Position numbers and translations under genes: made by a program
The notes under the pieces: model-generated
What the model was told of the DNA's origin: nothing
The model's input: the letters and a program-made list of their open reading frames with translations, nothing else
Database searches by the model: none
Assembly: GCA_020692945.1 (NCBI GenBank)
Contig: JAIMJY010000004.1
Span: 1 to 36,613 of the forward strand
DNA from: Caldisericum sp.
Lineage (GTDB): Bacteria > Caldisericota > Caldisericia > Caldisericales > Caldisericaceae
Reading direction: 5' to 3'
DNA: 36,613 nt
In this document: one piece after another, positions 22,510 through 32,014 of the stretch
Layout: each line of letters starts with the position of its first letter
How positions within the stretch are numbered: position 1 is the first letter of the stretch

Positions 22510-24897
22510 ATGCTTATTTCAATGAAGTTAATAAAAGAAACTATACCAAACAATTACAGTGCAAGCCAACTTGCAGAAAAATTAACATCTTTAGGAATTG
22601 AGGTTGAAGGAATCAGAAAAATAAAGCATAATTTTAAACACATCACTACAGGTAAAATCGAAAATATAGAGTTAATACATGACACAAAACTCTTCAAAAG
22701 CATAATTAATACAGGAAAAGAAAAACTCCAGATAATTACTGCGGCTACAAACCTTAAAACAGGTAATATTATACCCGTTGCTCTGCCTGGTAGTAAGATT
22801 GCTAATGGAACAGCAGTTGGCAAAAAGAATTTCAAAGGTGTAGATTCCCATGGAATGCTTTGTTCCGTAAGCGAGCTAGGCATCGAAAATGACCTCGTAA
22901 GTAATGAAGAAAAAGAAGGAATATTTTTGCTTCCTACTGACACACCAATCGGAGTACCTTTTGAGAACGTATTACCAGTAGACGACGAACTTTTCGAGGT
23001 TTCTCTTCTACCAGATCGGGCTGATGCATTTTACCTTGCCGGAATTGCACGCTGGGTTGAAATAATAATGGCAAGAGACGAGAATCGCCCTGCCAATTTC
23101 TCTAAAATAGGACAATTACCAGATATTCAAGCATTTGGAAAAAACGACGTTGAAATTGAAATTAGCTCTAAAGATATGTGTCCTTTTTACTCAGGACGAA
23201 TCATCAGAAACATTTACGTCAAAAAGAGCTCTCTGAACCTTCGCCAAAAACTTTTTCTTTTAAAAATTCGTCCTATAAACAATATCGTAGATGTAACAAA
23301 TTACATAATGAAGTTTTACGGACAACCCCTACATGCTTTTGACTTTGATAGGCTAAATGGCAAGATAATTGTAAGGACAGCCAAAGTAGGAGAGAAACTA
23401 ACGACACTAGATGGAGTAGAAAGAAAGTTAAATAACCACAACCTGCTTATTTCAGATGATAGTGGACCAATTGCAATAGCTGGAGTAATGGGAGGAGAAG
23501 AAACAGCAGTCACCGAAACAACAAAAAACATCTTTCTTGAAAGCGCCTATTTCAGTGGACAAGCGATCGCAAAGAGCTCAAGAAGCTTAGGATTAATAAC
23601 AGATGCTTCAACTCTTTATGAGAAAGGAATAGACTACAAATTTCAATCAAGTGCATCAAAACTTGCAGCAAACCTTATGAAAGCAGAAGCTAACGGAAGC
23701 CCTTCAGAAGAAAGAACTGTTTCATATATTTTAAAGAAACAACAAGTAAAGGTAAGGTATGATAGAATTAACTCAATTTTAGGAGAAGAAGTCTCCCCGA
23801 GCGATGTTAAAAAGTATTTTGATTTCGAGGGCTTTAAATACGTTGACCAAGGCGACAAACTACTTGTGAATGCTCCCTCGTTTAGGCAGGATATTAACAT
23901 TGAAGAAGACCTAATCGAAGAAGTAGTAAGAATGAAAGGCTACAACGAGTTCAAAGAAAAAATGCTTGAAGGCAAAATAAAAAGTGGCAGTAGAACTGAA
24001 TTTGAAGACTTCTTACTGAGACTGAAGGATAAACTCGTAGCACTCGGATTAGTTGAGGTGAATACAGTATCTCTTGTTGGAATTCCTCTACTCCAATCAG
24101 TTAAGTTCTCTGATGCAGAAGAGTTAGTAGAACTAGTTAATCCGCTTTCTGAAGAAATGAAGTATCTTCGGCCGACATTGTTGGCTACAGTTTATGAAGT
24201 GCTCGAGAGGAATATTAACGTAGGAGTTGAAGATATAGCAATTTTTGAAATTGGCAAAATATTTCATAAAACAAATAAATATTTCGAAAAAACCCAGCTT
24301 GGAATAATGTTGCATGGAAAAAGGGTAGAAGAAAATGGATTAAAAGTCAGTTTAAAATATGATTTCTTTTACTTGAAAGGACTTGTTGAAGAAATTTTCG
24401 AAGGACTGAATATAGCAGTAAATTTTTCTCAAAAAGAATATCCCGCTCTTCACCCTTTCCAAGTAGAAGAAATAATCGCTGATGGGAAAGAAATAGGATG
24501 CTTTGGACGATTAAATAAAGACCTCGAAAAGAATTCCTACTATGCTTCAATTGGGGTCGATGAACTCTACAAATTGTATGTTAAGAAAATAAAATTTATC
24601 CCTTATTCAATATACCCTCCTGTAAAAAGAGACATTGCAATTGTCCTAAATGGCGAGGTGCCTGAACAATCAGTAAGAGAGGCGATATTCGGGTTGAGAA
24701 TTAGAGAACTGAAGAGCGCTACGCTATTTGATGTCTACAAAGGAGCTCCCCTCCCCAATCAAAAAAAGAGTTTAGCGTATTCCCTTGAGTTCTCTTCTTT
24801 TGATAAAACACTAACAGGAGAAGAAGTCGATAAATTTATTAATGAAATAGAGCTTTCCATTAAGGAGAAAGTGCAAGGCGAATTGAGAAAGAAATGA
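22510..24897 (+). CDS. pheT: Phenylalanyl-tRNA synthetase beta subunit
   Basis: A 795-residue beta subunit of full length. In order it has an EMAP/tRNA-binding domain (about residues 40-150, with the SHGMLCSVSELGI segment), the B3/B4 editing domain, and the B5 domain. It ends with the anticodon-binding FDX-ACB domain (YPPVKRDIAIVL to the C-terminus). GVMGGEETAVTETTKNIFLE is the conserved end of the editing core. The start MLISMKLIKE is taken because GAGG lies before it; the Met at codon 5 is an alternative. It overlaps the PolX-like gene by four bases, so translation is coupled. Confidence 0.96.
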   Translation: MLISMKLIKETIPNNYSASQLAEKLTSLGIEVEGIRKIKHNFKHITTGKIENIELIHDTKLFKSIINTGKEKLQIITAATNLKTGNIIPVALPGSKIANGTAVGKKNFKGVDSHGMLCSVSELGIENDLVSNEEKEGIFLLPTDTPIGVPFENVLPVDDELFEVSLLPDRADAFYLAGIARWVEIIMARDENRPANFSKIGQLPDIQAFGKNDVEIEISSKDMCPFYSGRIIRNIYVKKSSLNLRQKLFLLKIRPINNIVDVTNYIMKFYGQPLHAFDFDRLNGKIIVRTAKVGEKLTTLDGVERKLNNHNLLISDDSGPIAIAGVMGGEETAVTETTKNIFLESAYFSGQAIAKSSRSLGLITDASTLYEKGIDYKFQSSASKLAANLMKAEANGSPSEERTVSYILKKQQVKVRYDRINSILGEEVSPSDVKKYFDFEGFKYVDQGDKLLVNAPSFRQDINIEEDLIEEVVRMKGYNEFKEKMLEGKIKSGSRTEFEDFLLRLKDKLVALGLVEVNTVSLVGIPLLQSVKFSDAEELVELVNPLSEEMKYLRPTLLATVYEVLERNINVGVEDIAIFEIGKIFHKTNKYFEKTQLGIMLHGKRVEENGLKVSLKYDFFYLKGLVEEIFEGLNIAVNFSQKEYPALHPFQVEEIIADGKEIGCFGRLNKDLEKNSYYASIGVDELYKLYVKKIKFIPYSIYPPVKRDIAIVLNGEVPEQSVREAIFGLRIRELKSATLFDVYKGAPLPNQKKSLAYSLEFSSFDKTLTGEEVDKFINEIELSIKEKVQGELRKK

Positions 24898-26561
24898 CCA
24901 ATTGGGAAATAGCCCAGAATCTACTCTACTTAAAGCTTCTTCTTGAGCTTAGCAAAAACAAATATTTGGCTTCCTTTTATGAAAGTGCTGCTTACACTGT
25001 CAGTGTATTAGATTATCCTATATTTGCTAGCACAAATTTATTTTTTCTTCCAGTGCAAATGCAAAATGCAATAGAAGAACTGATAGAAACTGGGGGTTCC
25101 GTATTAAAAGAGAATCTTGAGCGCAAGGTTCCCAAAAGTCTAAGAATTATTGCTCGGATTCCTGGTCTCAGGCCTGAAAATGCAGTTAAAATTTATGAAA
25201 CACTTGACGTTGATTCAATTTCTGATATTAAACGTGTACTAAATAAAGGAAAAATTATACAAGAATTCGGCTCTCGTTTCGACGAACAAATTAGAAGAGG
25301 CCTAATTGAATATGAAAAAGGCAGAAACGAACTAAGCCTTTTTGATGGATATTCATACGCAAAATCAATCACCCACAACATAAACAAAGACCTAAAAATA
25401 GATGTTGCGGGAAGCACACGAAGAGGAAAAGAAATTGTAAACAATGTCGATTTTGTAGTGTGTAGCAGCCTCGACTCTTTTGTTCCAATCATATTAAACT
25501 TGATTCCTGTGAAAATGCTCGAGAGAAAAGGCAGCGACAGTTTACTTATTAAAGATAGGTTTGGCAATATTCTAAAATTTTATTTTGTTGAAGAAAAATA
25601 CTTCTATTCAGCTCTTCAATATTTCACTGGTTCAAAAGCACACAATAAAGAAATTTTACAAATAGCAAAAGGAAGGGGCTTTAAAACGTCCAAGCCAGGG
25701 TATGTGTTGGCTGAAGCACAAAGTGAAGAAGACTTTTACAAAATGCTCAACATGCAGTACATACCACCAGAAATAAGGGAAGGGGAAGAAGAAATTGGAC
25801 TTGCAAGGTGTTATTCTTTGCCAAAACTGCTTGAGAACAACGACGTTAAAGGAGATCTTCATATGCATTCAGATTTTAGCGATGGGACAAATACAATTAG
25901 CGACATGAAAGAAGAAGGGACTTACCATAAATATAATTACATAGCAATAACCGACCATTCGCTTTCTTTAAAAATAGCTCACGGTCTTTCAAGAGAAAGA
26001 TTGTATAAAGAAATAGAAGTTATTGATAAAATAAATATGGATAAAATGGAACCGTATATTTTAAAAGGAATTGAAACGGAAATTAACTTTGACGGAAGCG
26101 TTGATACGACCCCTGAAGATAGAAGTAAACTTGATGTCGTTATTGGAGCCCTTCATAACTTTTCTCAGAGCAGTTATGAAAATACCGACAGAGTTATTAA
26201 AGCAATAAAAAGTGGTATAATTAATTGTATAGCTCACCCCACAGGAAGAATTATTCGTGCGAGAGAACCTATGAATATTGATTTTGGCAAAGTTGTAGAA
26301 GAATCAGCTTCGAGTAACGTGGCGCTTGAGGTAAACTTGTTTCCAAATAGAATGGACCTATCCACAGGTTTTATTAAACAAGCACGAATGGGAGGAGCTA
26401 AACTCTTTTCGATTGGTACTGATGCACATAATGCAGGCCATTTGAATTTTATGGAATACGGTTTAAAAATATTAAGGAGGGCTTGGGTTAGACCTGAAGA
26501 GGTTTTGAATACATACGATCTGGAGGATTTGAGAGAGATACTATGGACCAAGAAACATTAA
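24894..26561 (+). CDS. polX: PolX/PHP protein with intact nuclease but degenerate polymerase site
   Basis: A 555-residue protein laid out like bacterial DNA polymerase X. It has an N-terminal helical region with a helix-hairpin-helix (RIPGLRPENAVKIYETL), a Pol beta-like core (about 95-315) and a C-terminal PHP domain (about 318-555). The core retains GSTRRGKE (173-180) and YFTGS (243-247). Of the three metal-binding aspartates of polymerase beta, Asp190 is Asn184, Asp192 is kept as Asp186, and Asp256 is Lys228, counted back from YFTGS. Nucleotide transfer is therefore unlikely. The PHP site is complete: DLHMHSDFSDG, AITDHS, KGIETEI, GALHN, AHPTGR and IGTDAH. It should act as a PHP 3'-exonuclease or AP-site nuclease in base repair. 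The gene overlaps pheT and mutS2. Confidence 0.88.
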   Translation: MTNWEIAQNLLYLKLLLELSKNKYLASFYESAAYTVSVLDYPIFASTNLFFLPVQMQNAIEELIETGGSVLKENLERKVPKSLRIIARIPGLRPENAVKIYETLDVDSISDIKRVLNKGKIIQEFGSRFDEQIRRGLIEYEKGRNELSLFDGYSYAKSITHNINKDLKIDVAGSTRRGKEIVNNVDFVVCSSLDSFVPIILNLIPVKMLERKGSDSLLIKDRFGNILKFYFVEEKYFYSALQYFTGSKAHNKEILQIAKGRGFKTSKPGYVLAEAQSEEDFYKMLNMQYIPPEIREGEEEIGLARCYSLPKLLENNDVKGDLHMHSDFSDGTNTISDMKEEGTYHKYNYIAITDHSLSLKIAHGLSRERLYKEIEVIDKINMDKMEPYILKGIETEINFDGSVDTTPEDRSKLDVVIGALHNFSQSSYENTDRVIKAIKSGIINCIAHPTGRIIRAREPMNIDFGKVVEESASSNVALEVNLFPNRMDLSTGFIKQARMGGAKLFSIGTDAHNAGHLNFMEYGLKILRRAWVRPEEVLNTYDLEDLREILWTKKH

Positions 26562-28894
26562 AAGCTGTAGGATATTTCGATATTTTAAGAGACCTTGAGC
26601 ATTTATGTATAACATTAGGCGGGAAGGAATACGCCAAAAGCCTACAGCCTTATGAAAATTACGACGAAACACTGGCTAATTTAAAAGAAACAACTGAAGC
26701 AAAGACATTTTACGGGAGAGAAGGAGATTTACCATTTATTGATTTTATTGGCATCGAACCAATAATAGAAAAGATAAAAGTCCTTTCAATGGTCACTGGT
26801 GAAGAGCTTCTTAGCATGACAAGTGTTTTTAGTTCGTTTGCAGAAATCAAAGAAATCGGAGACTCATTTATGGAAGATTTCCCTCAGATGAACTTTTATA
26901 CGTCTAAAATTAGTTCATTCAAAGATATATCCGAAAAAATCATAAAAGCAGTAGGACCAGATGGGAAATTAGTTGACGATGCTTCCCCTTTACTTAATAT
27001 TGTCAGAAGAGAGATAAAAATAACCTATACGAGGATTCAAACAATACTCCAAAGCATTGTTTATTCAAAAGACTACGAAGAGGTTATACAGGACCAAATA
27101 ATAACTAAAAGGAATGGAAGATATGTGATCCCAGTAAGGCAAAACTCCCGTCCTGCCTTTCAATATATAATTCAAGGGGAGTCAAGTACTAGGCTTACAA
27201 TATTTGTAGAACCTATATCTGTAGTCGACTTAAACAACAAGCTTGTTGACCTGTCGAGCAAAGAAAAACAAGAAGAAGAAAGGATAATACTCGAATTAGA
27301 GGGATTGATTCAAGCAAAGATAGACCAAATTCTCAACTCGCTTTCTATTATTTACAAGCTTGATTTCATATTTGGAAAAGGAAAACTGTCTTTGAAAATG
27401 AAGAGTGATGAGCCAGAATTGACAGATAAAAATAAAATTTTTTTATTTGAGGCACGAAACCCTTTTATTAGCGAGGATAAGGTTATCCCAATTAATGTTG
27501 AAGTAGGTGAAGATTTCAGAATGCTCATAATTACAGGGCCAAACACTGGAGGGAAAACCGTAACACTAAAAACAGTTGGACTCCTAGTTCTTATGACGGA
27601 GTCGGGTTTACATATTCCAGCTTATTCTGCAACCAAAATTGGCTTCTTTAAAAACATATACACGGACATCGGTGATGAGCAGAGTATTCAGCAAAATCTC
27701 TCTACATTTTCGTCACATATGAGCAGAATAATTAATATAATGAAAGATGCCGACAAAAGTACCCTCGTTCTTATTGACGAACTTGGTGCAGGAACGGATC
27801 CCGAGGAGGGAGCAGCACTTGGGTACGCCATCTTAGAGAAACTATATAATTTAAAATGCCTTACTATAGCCACCACTCATCACAGCAAACTAAAGAGCTT
27901 TGCTTATAAGTTTATCTTATCTAAAAATGCTTCCGTAGGATTTGACATAGAAACCCTTATGCCAACTTACCACCTTTATATAGGAATCCCGGGAGAGAGT
28001 CACGCCTTTATAATAGCACAGAACCTTGGTGTATCAGAAGACGTACTTGAGAGCGCTACAAAAGAACTATCGCAAGATTACATAGCGTCAAAAGAAATCA
28101 TTTCAAAAATGTCTGAGGAACAAAAACGAATTGGTGAGTCAAAAGAAATTATAGAAAAAAGTAAGGAAGAAACTGAAGAATTGAAGAAAATTCTTGAGAA
28201 AAAAGTTCAGGAACTTGATGAAAGAAAGCACATAGAAACTAAAAAAGCCTACGAAGAAGCAAGAAAAATGGTTCAAGAAACGAAAGAAAAGATGAACAGT
28301 ATTCTTATGAATTTAGATAACACAATTAAGAGTCAAAAAATGATTCAAGAGCTAAAGAAAGCTTTTCAAGAGGAAGGCGAGAAAGTAGAGCAAAGAATAG
28401 AAGACATGGAACCAAAGGAAAAAGTTGACATAACAGGATTAGAAGAGGGCTCTCTCGTATATGTACCAAACTTCAAAAGACAGGGAATAATTCTCGGTAA
28501 AATGGAAGATAAAGGAAAAATTGTTATACAGATGGGAAGCATCAGAGCTACCGTATCAATAAACGATGTTCAGTTAATTGCAAATGCAGTATATTCAAGT
28601 CCAAAGAAAGAAGAAAAAGATGAGATACTCGATGAAATTTCCAATTTACAAGTACCCATGAAGCTTGACCTGCATGGCTTTACCGTAGAAGAAGCAGTTG
28701 AAAAATTGGATAAATATTTAGATTCTGCCTACCTAGTGGGAATGCCTTTCGCTTATGTAATACACGGAAAGGGATCTGGAGCACTAAAAGAAGCAATAAC
28801 GGATTATTTGAGAAAAAAGGTTCACGTCTCACATTTTTACACTGGAACATTGGAAGAAGGGGGTAGTGGTGTTACCATTGTTTATTTAAAATGA
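26543..28894 (+). CDS. mutS2: MutS2 ATPase/endonuclease
   Basis: A 783-residue MutS2. The ATPase has Walker A GPNTGGKTVTLKTVGLL near residue 334 and Walker B LVLIDELGAGTDPEEGAALG. A long Lys/Glu-rich coiled coil (about 515-630) follows, then a KOW-like segment and a C-terminal Smr nuclease domain with LDLHGFTVEEA and VIHGKGSGALK. No mismatch-recognition domain is present, as expected for MutS2. It acts on branched DNA, limiting recombination, and in Bacillus also on collided ribosomes. It overlaps the PolX-like gene by 19 bases, the same pairing as in Firmicutes, so the two are co-expressed. Confidence 0.96.
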   Translation: MDQETLKAVGYFDILRDLEHLCITLGGKEYAKSLQPYENYDETLANLKETTEAKTFYGREGDLPFIDFIGIEPIIEKIKVLSMVTGEELLSMTSVFSSFAEIKEIGDSFMEDFPQMNFYTSKISSFKDISEKIIKAVGPDGKLVDDASPLLNIVRREIKITYTRIQTILQSIVYSKDYEEVIQDQIITKRNGRYVIPVRQNSRPAFQYIIQGESSTRLTIFVEPISVVDLNNKLVDLSSKEKQEEERIILELEGLIQAKIDQILNSLSIIYKLDFIFGKGKLSLKMKSDEPELTDKNKIFLFEARNPFISEDKVIPINVEVGEDFRMLIITGPNTGGKTVTLKTVGLLVLMTESGLHIPAYSATKIGFFKNIYTDIGDEQSIQQNLSTFSSHMSRIINIMKDADKSTLVLIDELGAGTDPEEGAALGYAILEKLYNLKCLTIATTHHSKLKSFAYKFILSKNASVGFDIETLMPTYHLYIGIPGESHAFIIAQNLGVSEDVLESATKELSQDYIASKEIISKMSEEQKRIGESKEIIEKSKEETEELKKILEKKVQELDERKHIETKKAYEEARKMVQETKEKMNSILMNLDNTIKSQKMIQELKKAFQEEGEKVEQRIEDMEPKEKVDITGLEEGSLVYVPNFKRQGIILGKMEDKGKIVIQMGSIRATVSINDVQLIANAVYSSPKKEEKDEILDEISNLQVPMKLDLHGFTVEEAVEKLDKYLDSAYLVGMPFAYVIHGKGSGALKEAITDYLRKKVHVSHFYTGTLEEGGSGVTIVYLK

Positions 28895-29025: not shown

Positions 29026-31275
29026 ATGGAAAATGATAGGATATTGATTTTTTTTGACCTTGAAACGACAGGATTAGACCCAGACTCTGATGATGTAATT
29101 GAGATTGGGGCAATAAAAACTAAAGATGGAGAAATTGTAGAAGAGTTTTCATCTTTCGTTAAGCCAAGAAAATCCATTTCAAGGTTTATAACTAATCTAA
29201 CAGGGATAACTGAGGAAGACTTAAAAAAAGCTAAAGATGTTGAGGAAATTAAGGAGAAGATAAACTCGTTCATAAGAAATTATCCACTAATAGCTCATAA
29301 TGCTTACTTCGACAAGATGTTTCTTGAAAAATTGCTCAACAAAGCCATTGAGAATGAAGTTTTTGACACACTGGAGATTTCAAGAATTTTTTTTCCAGAA
29401 CTTAAATCACACAGCCTTCAAAATCTAATCAAAAAATTGTCTCTAAAAAAAGAAAATTCTCATAGAGCTCTTAGTGACACCTTGATGCTCGTTTCTCTAT
29501 TCGAGAAAATTGAAATTGAAAAGGAAAAATATCCTAAGGAATTCTTAAAAAAAATTAAAAAGATAATCGAACCCAACACTGACTACACTTCTCTTTTTGG
29601 AAAGAACTGGGAAGACTCAAAAAATGACGAAGAAACAAAAATATTCGAAACACAATCGTCAAATTTAAACACACTCCCGTTTAAAGAAAATCCTCAACCT
29701 GCCTCAACTGCTGTAAACAAACTTTTTTACGTCGACTCTGCCTCAATTGATGATACGATAGAGGAAGTCGTAAGACTATTAAAAGACGATCCGCAAAAAC
29801 AAATAGTACAAGAGAGCATTAGCAAAGACGAAAGCTATAAAGGATTAACCAAAGTCGTATTATCAGTTTACAGCAACGATTTAAGAAGCGAAGTTTCAAT
29901 GAAACTTTCAAACAAAAGTTTTCATGCTTCAAATGTTGAGAATTCGGAAAAATTGCTTTGCCCTAAAAAAATCCAGTTTTTTCTTGATAATTCCGGCATA
30001 ATTCCTACTGAATATAAAATAAACTTCGCTATTCTTGTTTCATACTTATTCAGAACAAAAGATATTTCACTTAGCAGTGCTCCAACGCACATCATGAAAA
30101 ATCCTCTAATAAGGATCCTATCCTTTTGCGATGAACCATTTGATACTTGCAAATTTAAAAACCAATGCCCTTTATTTAAAAAATTATCAGAAATCAAAAG
30201 TTCCGACGTAGTAATAGTCAACCATCAATTCGCATTTAACTCTTCTATTCTGAGAGATGAGCTAAATGGCACAAATTTACTTTTCCTTGAGGCATACCGC
30301 CTGCCAAAAGTGTTATACTCTGCCAAAATTGGTTTGTCTTTATCTGATATAAACATGTTTGCGAGCTATCACAAAATCAAAAATGAGGACAGAGAAAAAA
30401 TAAAGATTATTTATGAATCTTTCGAGAACACTACTATAAAGGATTATTCAAAAGAGCTTGAAGAATTAAAAAAAATATTCGTGAAGTATAAGAATGATGT
30501 ACTTAAGAAATTTTTTGAACGAGAGACATTCTTCCTTGATAAAAAGGGAAACAAAACAGTTTTATTTGGGGCAAGCGAAAGTCCTAAGAGCGCCTTCGAA
30601 AAAATCACTAAAAAATTCAACTCGATTGAATTAATATCTAAGGAAAACAACATTGGAGATCGATTAGTTCTTAAAAGTTTTACAGGAGTCGAAGGAAAAC
30701 ATGCAACAATTGGAGTAAAAAAAGATAGAGAAGACATTATTTCACTAGTGCCGCTATTCCTGCCTTCAACGAACAATAGCTCTTTCCCTGAGGAATTCAC
30801 TTTCTTCTTCGGAAAAGTGCACAAACCGAATGTTAAGGCAGCTATTATATTTAATCAGCAGAACCTTCTCAAGGAAGTTTATTTCAATTTCAAGCGTACA
30901 GGCTTAATTCCAAAAGCATATGGAATAGACTTACAAGATGAGAATAAGGAAATTGAGATGTTTCTCTATGATATTTTGCCAAGCAACACCTATGATGAGG
31001 TTTATTTTGTTAAACTACCATCAATTCAAAGCGAAAATTTTACGAATGAAACCTTTGAATATTACTCTGCCTTGCTTTTAAAGAATTATGCAAAAGACTT
31101 AACCGACAAAAATCCACATAATCAAGCCTTCTTTTACTTTGACAACAAACTCAGAAGTAGAGACTATCGGATAAAGTATGAAGATCTTTTCATATCTTTC
31201 CCCCTATTTCTTGAACGCGAGGAATCTTTATTTAAGATGCTTGAGACTTGGTCAAGGCGACATCACCTTAGTTGA
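29026..31275 (+). CDS. DEDDh exonuclease fused to inactivated XPD/DinG-like helicase
   Basis: A 749-residue two-part protein. Residues 1-165 are a DnaQ/PolC-type 3'-5' exonuclease with all catalytic residues: Asp11 and Glu13 in FDLETTG, Asp96 in HNAYFD, and His146 and Asp151 in HRALSDT. The rest follows DinG. Four Cys match the XPD/DinG iron-sulfur cluster (312, 368, 375, 381), followed by SSDVVIVNHQFAF, the segment after the cluster. The Walker A region has become QESISKDESYKG (262-273), without GKT. The DEAH box is LEAY (421-424), and no QxxGRxxR motif VI is found. ATPase and unwinding activity are therefore unlikely; the FeS domain may only bind DNA. An 131-base spacer follows mutS2, so it may be transcribed separately. 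Confidence 0.85.
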   Translation: MENDRILIFFDLETTGLDPDSDDVIEIGAIKTKDGEIVEEFSSFVKPRKSISRFITNLTGITEEDLKKAKDVEEIKEKINSFIRNYPLIAHNAYFDKMFLEKLLNKAIENEVFDTLEISRIFFPELKSHSLQNLIKKLSLKKENSHRALSDTLMLVSLFEKIEIEKEKYPKEFLKKIKKIIEPNTDYTSLFGKNWEDSKNDEETKIFETQSSNLNTLPFKENPQPASTAVNKLFYVDSASIDDTIEEVVRLLKDDPQKQIVQESISKDESYKGLTKVVLSVYSNDLRSEVSMKLSNKSFHASNVENSEKLLCPKKIQFFLDNSGIIPTEYKINFAILVSYLFRTKDISLSSAPTHIMKNPLIRILSFCDEPFDTCKFKNQCPLFKKLSEIKSSDVVIVNHQFAFNSSILRDELNGTNLLFLEAYRLPKVLYSAKIGLSLSDINMFASYHKIKNEDREKIKIIYESFENTTIKDYSKELEELKKIFVKYKNDVLKKFFERETFFLDKKGNKTVLFGASESPKSAFEKITKKFNSIELISKENNIGDRLVLKSFTGVEGKHATIGVKKDREDIISLVPLFLPSTNNSSFPEEFTFFFGKVHKPNVKAAIIFNQQNLLKEVYFNFKRTGLIPKAYGIDLQDENKEIEMFLYDILPSNTYDEVYFVKLPSIQSENFTNETFEYYSALLLKNYAKDLTDKNPHNQAFFYFDNKLRSRDYRIKYEDLFISFPLFLEREESLFKMLETWSRRHHLS

Positions 31276-31321: not shown

Positions 31322-31398
31322 GCGCCCATAGCTCAATTGGATAGAGCAACGGTCTACGGAACCGTCGGTTGCAGGTTCGAGTCCTGCTGGGCGCGCCA
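31322..31398 (+). tRNA. tRNA-Arg (anticodon ACG)
   Basis: A 77-base cloverleaf including an encoded CCA. The acceptor GCGCCCA pairs with TGGGCGC, the D stem is GCTC/GAGC, and the anticodon stem ACGGT/ACCGT encloses CTACGGA with anticodon ACG. The T stem is GCAGG/CCTGC around TTCGAGT. A34 is expected to be edited to inosine, which reads CGN codons. Confidence 0.97.
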
Positions 31399-31414
31399 AA
31401 AAAAGGAGAAGAAG

Positions 31415-32014
31415 ATGAAAAACAAAGTTGAGACAGTAAGAAGCATCTATTTGTATCTTTTGAGTTTAGTCGGGGTAATCATGATTATCTTTGGATTGAT
31501 AAGCTTTGTTAATCAACTACTAACAGTGCTTATACCATCAAGTATTCCTCAAGGAGATATTAACTATGAGCTTTACTACTCAATTCAAGGAATGGTAAGA
31601 AATATATCATTTATTATTGTGGGAATAGTACTTTTAGTGTACCACTGGAAGTTGATTCTAAAAGAGCATAGAATCGGAAAAAGGGATTTGGAAAATGAGA
31701 GCGAATCATCAATGAACCTTTTTGAAGCAATCTTCTTTTATTTACTCTCTTTTATTGGGCTTATGGTTTTTTCTTTCTCGCTCGCTTCCTTTGCTTCAAA
31801 TTTCTTCTTTATCAAAGAGACTTACGCTGTACCCGTTAAGCCAGACACAAACCTTACTCCAATTCCACCTACAATAGGACCTAACGTTCGCTATATTGTT
31901 CAAAGCGGTATTGCTTCAATTATCGGACTTGTGGTATGGCTACTCGGTTTTACGCACATCCATGAAACATATAAAAACCCAGATAATCAAGTTGATAGTG
32001 ATACAGTCAACTAA
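31415..32014 (+). CDS. Four-helix integral membrane protein, DUF5671-like
   Basis: A 199-residue protein of unknown function. Hydrophobic helices lie near residues 11-37, 58-80, 104-127 and 161-180. The two halves look like an internal duplication: IYLYLLSLVGVIMIIFGL and IFFYLLSFIGLMVFSFSL occupy equivalent positions, each followed by a loop and a second helix. HWKLILKEH after helix 2 recalls the DUF5671 family. The start at 31415 has GGAGAAG upstream; an in-frame ATG inside the tRNA is rejected. The ATG lies 16 bases after the tRNA CCA with no terminator between, so the gene is probably expressed from the tRNA promoter. Confidence 0.6.
   Translation: MKNKVETVRSIYLYLLSLVGVIMIIFGLISFVNQLLTVLIPSSIPQGDINYELYYSIQGMVRNISFIIVGIVLLVYHWKLILKEHRIGKRDLENESESSMNLFEAIFFYLLSFIGLMVFSFSLASFASNFFFIKETYAVPVKPDTNLTPIPPTIGPNVRYIVQSGIASIIGLVVWLLGFTHIHETYKNPDNQVDSDTVN

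Follow-up and report, generated by a model that had tools for sequence, protein, structure and literature searches.

DinG helicases fused to an exonuclease (ExoDinG) are known from Staphylococcus aureus (PDB 8zef), Bacillus subtilis and Listeria monocytogenes, and they join an N-terminal DEDDh exonuclease to a DinG half whose ATPase/helicase is intact (PMC11981726, PMC12345164, PMC12525004, PMC12774634). In the crystal of the S. aureus protein (SaDinG; PDB 8zef) the bound ssDNA touches both motor domain 2 (MD2) and the Exo domain, and the residues contacting it include K801, R858, Y864, F804, F823 and K336/K338 (PMC12345164). The DEAH mutant of Listeria DinG retains prominent 3'-5' exonuclease activity (PMC12774634). 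The ExoDinG proteins of Bacilli have kept the motor and lost the FeS cysteines (PMC11981726), and pExoDinG of Caulobacter, likewise a nuclease-like domain joined to a DinG half with one of the two enzymes inactive, is predicted to have a dead nuclease and a live helicase (PMC11981726). The role of the cluster in FeS helicases of the E. coli DinG and XPD type is hard to study because cluster removal usually kills the helicase. In other helicase families a motor-less helicase fold has been kept for nucleic-acid binding or recognition, as in Deinococcus radiodurans PriA (PMC4504706) and in the helicase-like domain of AddB, which in AddAB lies beside a nuclease (PMC4824097).

Here we analyzed a window, that is, a whole stretch of DNA of 36,613 nucleotides from Caldisericum sp. 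(contig JAIMJY010000004.1), in which an exo-DinG gene encodes a protein that compares with each of these systems in a different way. It shares with ExoDinG the N-terminal DEDDh exonuclease, the DinG half and several ssDNA-contact residues of MD2, so that common descent is evident, whereas its motor has been lost and its MD1, Arch and MD2 are shorter. It is thus the mirror image of the ExoDinG of Bacilli and the reverse of pExoDinG. With E. coli DinG and XPD it has in common the register of the four FeS cysteines, but it lacks Walker A, DEAH and motif VI and bears an extra exonuclease domain, and it differs from PriA and AddB in that these have no DinG/XPD FeS domain.

The gene (29026..31275; this gene and all the features within it lie on the forward strand) is an open reading frame with an ATG start and 749 codons for amino acids. 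The genome to which it belongs (1.5 Mb, 207 contigs, 99% complete) is one of 18 of its family in our collection, and full-length members of 678-749 aa, with 34-44% identity to the window protein, are encoded in 15 of these 18 genomes, the window included, the three genomes with no full-length member being 55-75% complete. The exonuclease domain spans aa 8-159 (29047..29502; Pfam RNase_T, E = 3.6e-35), and the five DEDDh residues that the original prediction reported as present (D11, E13, D96, H146 and D151) are indeed there and are invariant in the 15 members. C-terminal of this domain the 749-aa protein yielded no convincing Pfam or NCBIfam match; the stretches that best match the DinG-type NCBIfam models belong to the exonuclease part, and TIGR01407 (dinG_rel) covered that part only, with 144.6 bits against a curated cut-off of 547.7. 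No genome of the window's phylum passes the TIGR01407 cut-off; since many ExoDinG of other phyla fall short of it too, although their motor is intact, this model is a weak test of membership. Helicase_C_2 (PF13307, cut-off 25.3 bits) has no match in the window's genome and does not reach its cut-off in any genome of the family, the best member giving E = 0.034. A single-sequence AlphaFold model of the 749-aa protein had a pLDDT of 35 and is unusable as a fold.

The origin of the C-terminal half was traced by profile-profile comparison. Our reference set comprised 44 ExoDinG from two other phyla (counts for other phyla refer to the sampled phyla only), all of them with DEAH/DEGH and QGxGRxIR and with the Walker A lysine kept in the alignment. 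When the DinG half of the family was compared by hhalign with the DinG half of these 44 intact proteins, the two matched with a probability of 98.9 and E = 1.4e-17 over 466 columns, with the cysteines in register, which bears out the proposal of an XPD/DinG-like half fused to the exonuclease. Homology is present across MD1, FeS/pFeS, Arch and MD2, with Arch and MD1 shortened. In a search of the family profile against the whole PDB, E. coli DinG (6fwr) ranked first, over the C194-C199-C205 segment, with an E value (0.015) that is weak on its own. The profile-profile match, with the PDB search in support, rules out chance similarity to DinG, and on this comparison the C-terminal half is DinG by descent, derived from ExoDinG. 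When two further phyla were searched with a DinG model, DinG proved to be nearly absent from one of them and mostly stand-alone in the other.

The three motor motifs examined have all degenerated. Alignment against the 44 intact ExoDinG places aa 262-273 of the window protein, QESISKDESYKG (29809..29844), at the position of the lost Walker A; this segment, Q262-G273, is an insertion private to the window protein, the region is deleted in the other 14 members, and the Walker A lysine is found in 0 of 15. Motif II (DEAH) reads LEAY at aa 421-424 (30286..30297), its D and its H being lost in 15 of 15 members, where the motif has become [LF][END][AS][YF]. At the place of motif VI (aa 687-694, 31084..31107) QGxGRxIR is lost, with Q, G, G, R and R each kept in 0/15, and in all 15 members the Q has been replaced by N and the first R by D or E. 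The three losses that had been read from the window alone, of Walker A (unrecognisable in the window), of DEAH in favour of LEAY and of motif VI, are hence properties of the family. We also looked for close homologues with an intact GKT/DEAH at these positions and found none, all 15 members and the orthologues of a second family being devoid of the motor motifs. A local loss or a sequencing error in one genome is ruled out, as the change is common to all 15 family members.

One could still argue that the motor is alive and uses unrecognised ATP motifs, in view of the E/N/D and A/S retained in motif II and of the motif III serine present in most members. Such a motor would have to work with a Walker A segment that is absent in 14/15 members and unrecognisable in the window, and with an acidic residue in place of the motif VI arginine in 15/15, and we consider it highly improbable. 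To judge from its motifs the C-terminal half is a pseudohelicase: it descends from a helicase, and the ATPase motifs are gone in all orthologues. Because ExoDinG motor features were absent on testing, the window protein is not to be filed as a DinG helicase.

The cysteines present the opposite picture. C312 (29959..29961), C368 (30127..30129), C375 (30148..30150) and C381 (30166..30168) were proposed as cluster cysteines in the original prediction. In the alignment with intact ExoDinG each of them falls in the column of an FeS ligand, as ligands 1 to 4, and the last three correspond to chain positions 194, 199 and 205 of EcDinG. All four are cysteine in 15/15 members of the window's family and in 7/7 of the second family; among the intact ExoDinG the first three are cysteine in 44/44, and the fourth in 36/44, with D in the other 8. 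They are the sole cysteines of the window protein, and in 9 of the 15 members the ligands are the only cysteines. As the 44 ExoDinG from other phyla retain the motor residues and nearly all the ligands, it is the motor that was lost and the cluster site that was kept. Among columns of the DinG half that are at least 90% conserved in intact ExoDinG, those still 100% conserved in the window's family were 3 of 3 for the cysteines and 1 of 85 for the others (Fisher P = 3.6e-5), the fourth cysteine column (36 C, 8 D in the intact set) lying outside this test because it is below 90% conservation. Comparison of the cysteines with the Walker residues across homologues, as had been suggested, therefore gave 15/15 for the former and 0/15 for the Walker A lysine. 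We infer that a predicted 4Fe-4S cluster is still held by the four cysteines.

Four-cysteine sites often bind zinc, and the site could be a purely structural zinc site with no FeS cluster, since sequence alone cannot separate the two metals. The spacing and register of the cysteines fit the FeS ligands of EcDinG and ExoDinG, however, and the genome encodes FeS scaffold proteins of the IscU/NifU type, with two genes on contig C89; zinc is on these grounds decidedly unlikely. The SufB/SufD core was not found in the window's genome and is present in all 14 control genomes, which counts against a cluster. If a cluster is there, it might sense redox state or DNA charge and turn the exonuclease, or the grip on nucleic acid, on or off, the motor having been discarded as needless for sensing. 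Hardly any ancestral invariant residue of the DinG half has survived besides the cysteines, the FeS domain is generally for redox signal sensing according to the DinG review (PMC11981726), and E. coli DinG is reported to be redox-controlled, going by the title of a reference cited in PMC12774634. A structural cluster would nonetheless yield equal conservation, the FeS or pseudo-FeS domain of helicase relatives also binds DNA as a structural element (PMC12345164), and we saw no redox partner or regulation in the gene neighbourhood, so that we regard a sensor of this kind as unlikely.

A half that has lost its motor might also be a functionless leftover in decay, with the cysteines kept by chance or because little time has passed, and a third family of the class does possess an exonuclease-only relative of 197 aa. 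Estimates of dN/dS (NG86, close pairs) were 0.05-0.12 for the exonuclease and 0.07-0.27 for the DinG half; purifying selection acts on the DinG half, which is evolving about 1.4-3 times faster than the exonuclease. Selection on a motor-less half that keeps its FeS cysteines, claimed earlier from the window alone, is thus borne out. The open frames are full-length in all 15 members, with the cysteines invariant at only 27-38% identity to the window protein in the DinG half, and the alignment of this half (15 rows) has just 29 invariant columns, all four cysteines among them, such counts not being independent events as the members are related. Decay of the DinG half is ruled out by its dN/dS together with the invariance of the cysteines, and we give a functionless half hardly any credence.

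Besides the cysteines, part of the ssDNA path has been retained. The remnant of motor domain 2 (aa 503-749, 30532..31272), aligned to intact ExoDinG by hhalign, keeps K663, K708, Y714 and P665, which map to SaDinG K801, R858, Y864 and P803, respectively. Across the family the K801 position is K or R, the R858 position R or K and the Y864 position F or Y, each in 15/15 members, and the KLPF proline is likewise kept in 15/15. The family has lost the contacts F804 and F823 (two of the five in MD2) as well as K336/K338, the lysines of MD1, so strands may be held less firmly or in a different manner. Of the roles named in the original prediction, DNA binding or redox sensing, the retained residues favour the former, as a grip on nucleic acid.

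With the above in mind, our preferred reading, to which we assign a probability of roughly 0.55, is that the protein is an ATP-independent 3'-5' DEDDh exonuclease guided by an ExoDinG-derived pseudohelicase, with the FeS cluster shaping a single-strand gate. A 4Fe-4S cluster on the four cysteines would brace the small FeS domain, which would act as a gate or wedge; this domain and the basic and aromatic track of the motor-domain-2 remnant would grip a single strand; and the gate, being passive, would hand the 3' end of the strand to the exonuclease with no translocation. By analogy with the active Listeria DEAH mutant and the ssDNA contacts of SaDinG, an enzyme of this type that works free of ATP is plausible. 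In the cell it would trim 3' ends beside MutS2 and probably also beside a nuclease-only PolX.

These two partners are suggested by the gene neighbourhood. Upstream of the exo-DinG gene, on the same strand, lie mutS2 (MutS_V + Smr; 26543..28894; TIGR01069, E = 4.5e-235), polX (24894..26561) and pheT (22510..24897; TIGR00472, E = 2.2e-209), and wherever the region was read in the window's family the genes stand in the order pheS-pheT-polX-mutS2-exoDinG. The mutS2/exoDinG junction is often a 4-bp overlap in this family, and in the window itself a gap of 131 bases. In both families mutS2 is directly upstream of exoDinG, being its sole constant partner apart from pheST. Intact ExoDinG elsewhere was found beside MutS2 at only 1 of 46 loci (in another phylum, L142 7098-12938, with mutS2 upstream and a 664-bp gap), and we therefore do not claim that the pairing is ancestral. 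Immediately 3' of the exo-DinG gene is a tRNA-Arg (acg) at 31322-31398 (forward strand); a TTG-started ORF at 31337-32014 overlaps it, so that translation of this DUF5671 membrane protein probably begins further inside the frame.

The PolX encoded two genes upstream of exo-DinG has an altered polymerase triad, N-D-K, and a PHP domain. Alignment to Thermus PolX (3au2) shows that the first catalytic aspartate (GDLD in 3au2) is N (NNVD in the window) and that the third catalytic position is K, both changes being found in all seven family members read, with the PHP motifs intact. By these residues it is a noncanonical PolX, of the class defined in PMC9226535, with the polymerase site lost and the PHP nuclease motifs kept. 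It belongs to a protein family unrelated to ExoDinG that has made the same evolutionary move, losing the main activity and keeping a 3'-5' exonuclease. From the alterations in PolX and exo-DinG, the operon seems to pair MutS2 with two enzymes whose main activity is gone and whose nuclease remains, and the polymerase-dead neighbour suggests a nuclease-only operon for repair or quality control with MutS2.

The same neighbourhood can be read in terms of translation, the enzyme trimming with MutS2 the 3' ends of rRNA or mRNA in ribosome quality control. The constant nucleic-acid-related neighbour in both families is mutS2, whose product splits stalled or collided ribosomes in B. subtilis (PMC10897456); the pheST genes of the operon are also translational; and in Listeria unprocessed rRNA is a target of DinG as a 3'-5' exoribonuclease, for whose nuclease function the DEAH motif is not needed (PMC12774634). 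Yet the operon of the window's family also contains a repair nuclease of the PolX type, and ExoDinG enzymes degrade DNA too, Listeria DinG even preferring it (PMC12774634). We hold this role to be possible, if doubtful; it is compatible with a passive gate. A bolder version of the gate, in which the cluster senses the redox state or damaged or mismatched strands and thereby gates the ATP-independent 3'-5' exonuclease together with MutS2, seems to us rather unlikely; if true, the function of the FeS domain would be wholly separable from unwinding.

The second family of the class carries a longer version of about 836 aa in which Walker A is absent in 7/7 and DEAH and motif VI are lost, and its gene order, pheS-pheT-mutS2-exoDinG, puts the gene at the same place as in the window's family. 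These orthologues match the DinG half of the window's family at the profile level (E = 9.2e-5), and most of them pass the threshold of Helicase_C_2 when the genomes are searched, which confirms the DinG origin. In the exonuclease tree the window's family, the second family and the third are grouped (support 86, not starred). The motor may have died once, before the split between the window's family and the second, or it may have died twice. The exonuclease-only relatives of the third family occupy another gene place (L039 4418-5011; L040 4820-5413) and may represent the end point of DinG-half loss or a separate gene. In a fifth family of the class DinG stands alone (782-806 aa; L137-L141), with DEAH, a strong Helicase_C_2 match and no exonuclease. 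In a pattern scan of the genome collection with the single window protein the sole match was an exonuclease-domain relative (L031), and viral contigs gave exonuclease-domain relatives only, over residues 1-196.

As to novelty, the original prediction spoke of an undescribed nuclease architecture. The fusion as such is already known, being that of ExoDinG (PDB 8zef). Our searches of an open paper collection turned up no description of its motor-less, cluster-keeping version, which is no proof of absence, and words beginning with "Caldiseric" do not occur in the main text of the DinG review (PMC11981726). What is new here is then a motor-less version of ExoDinG in which the FeS ligands are kept. 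The family offers a natural separation-of-function protein, in which whatever the cluster contributes to binding, stability, redox response or nuclease activity can be measured with no motor in play. Because the ExoDinG of Bacilli kept the motor and lost the cluster and the window's family did the reverse, these two features of ExoDinG have been dropped independently, and in the window's family evolution appears to have separated the function of the cluster from that of the helicase motor.
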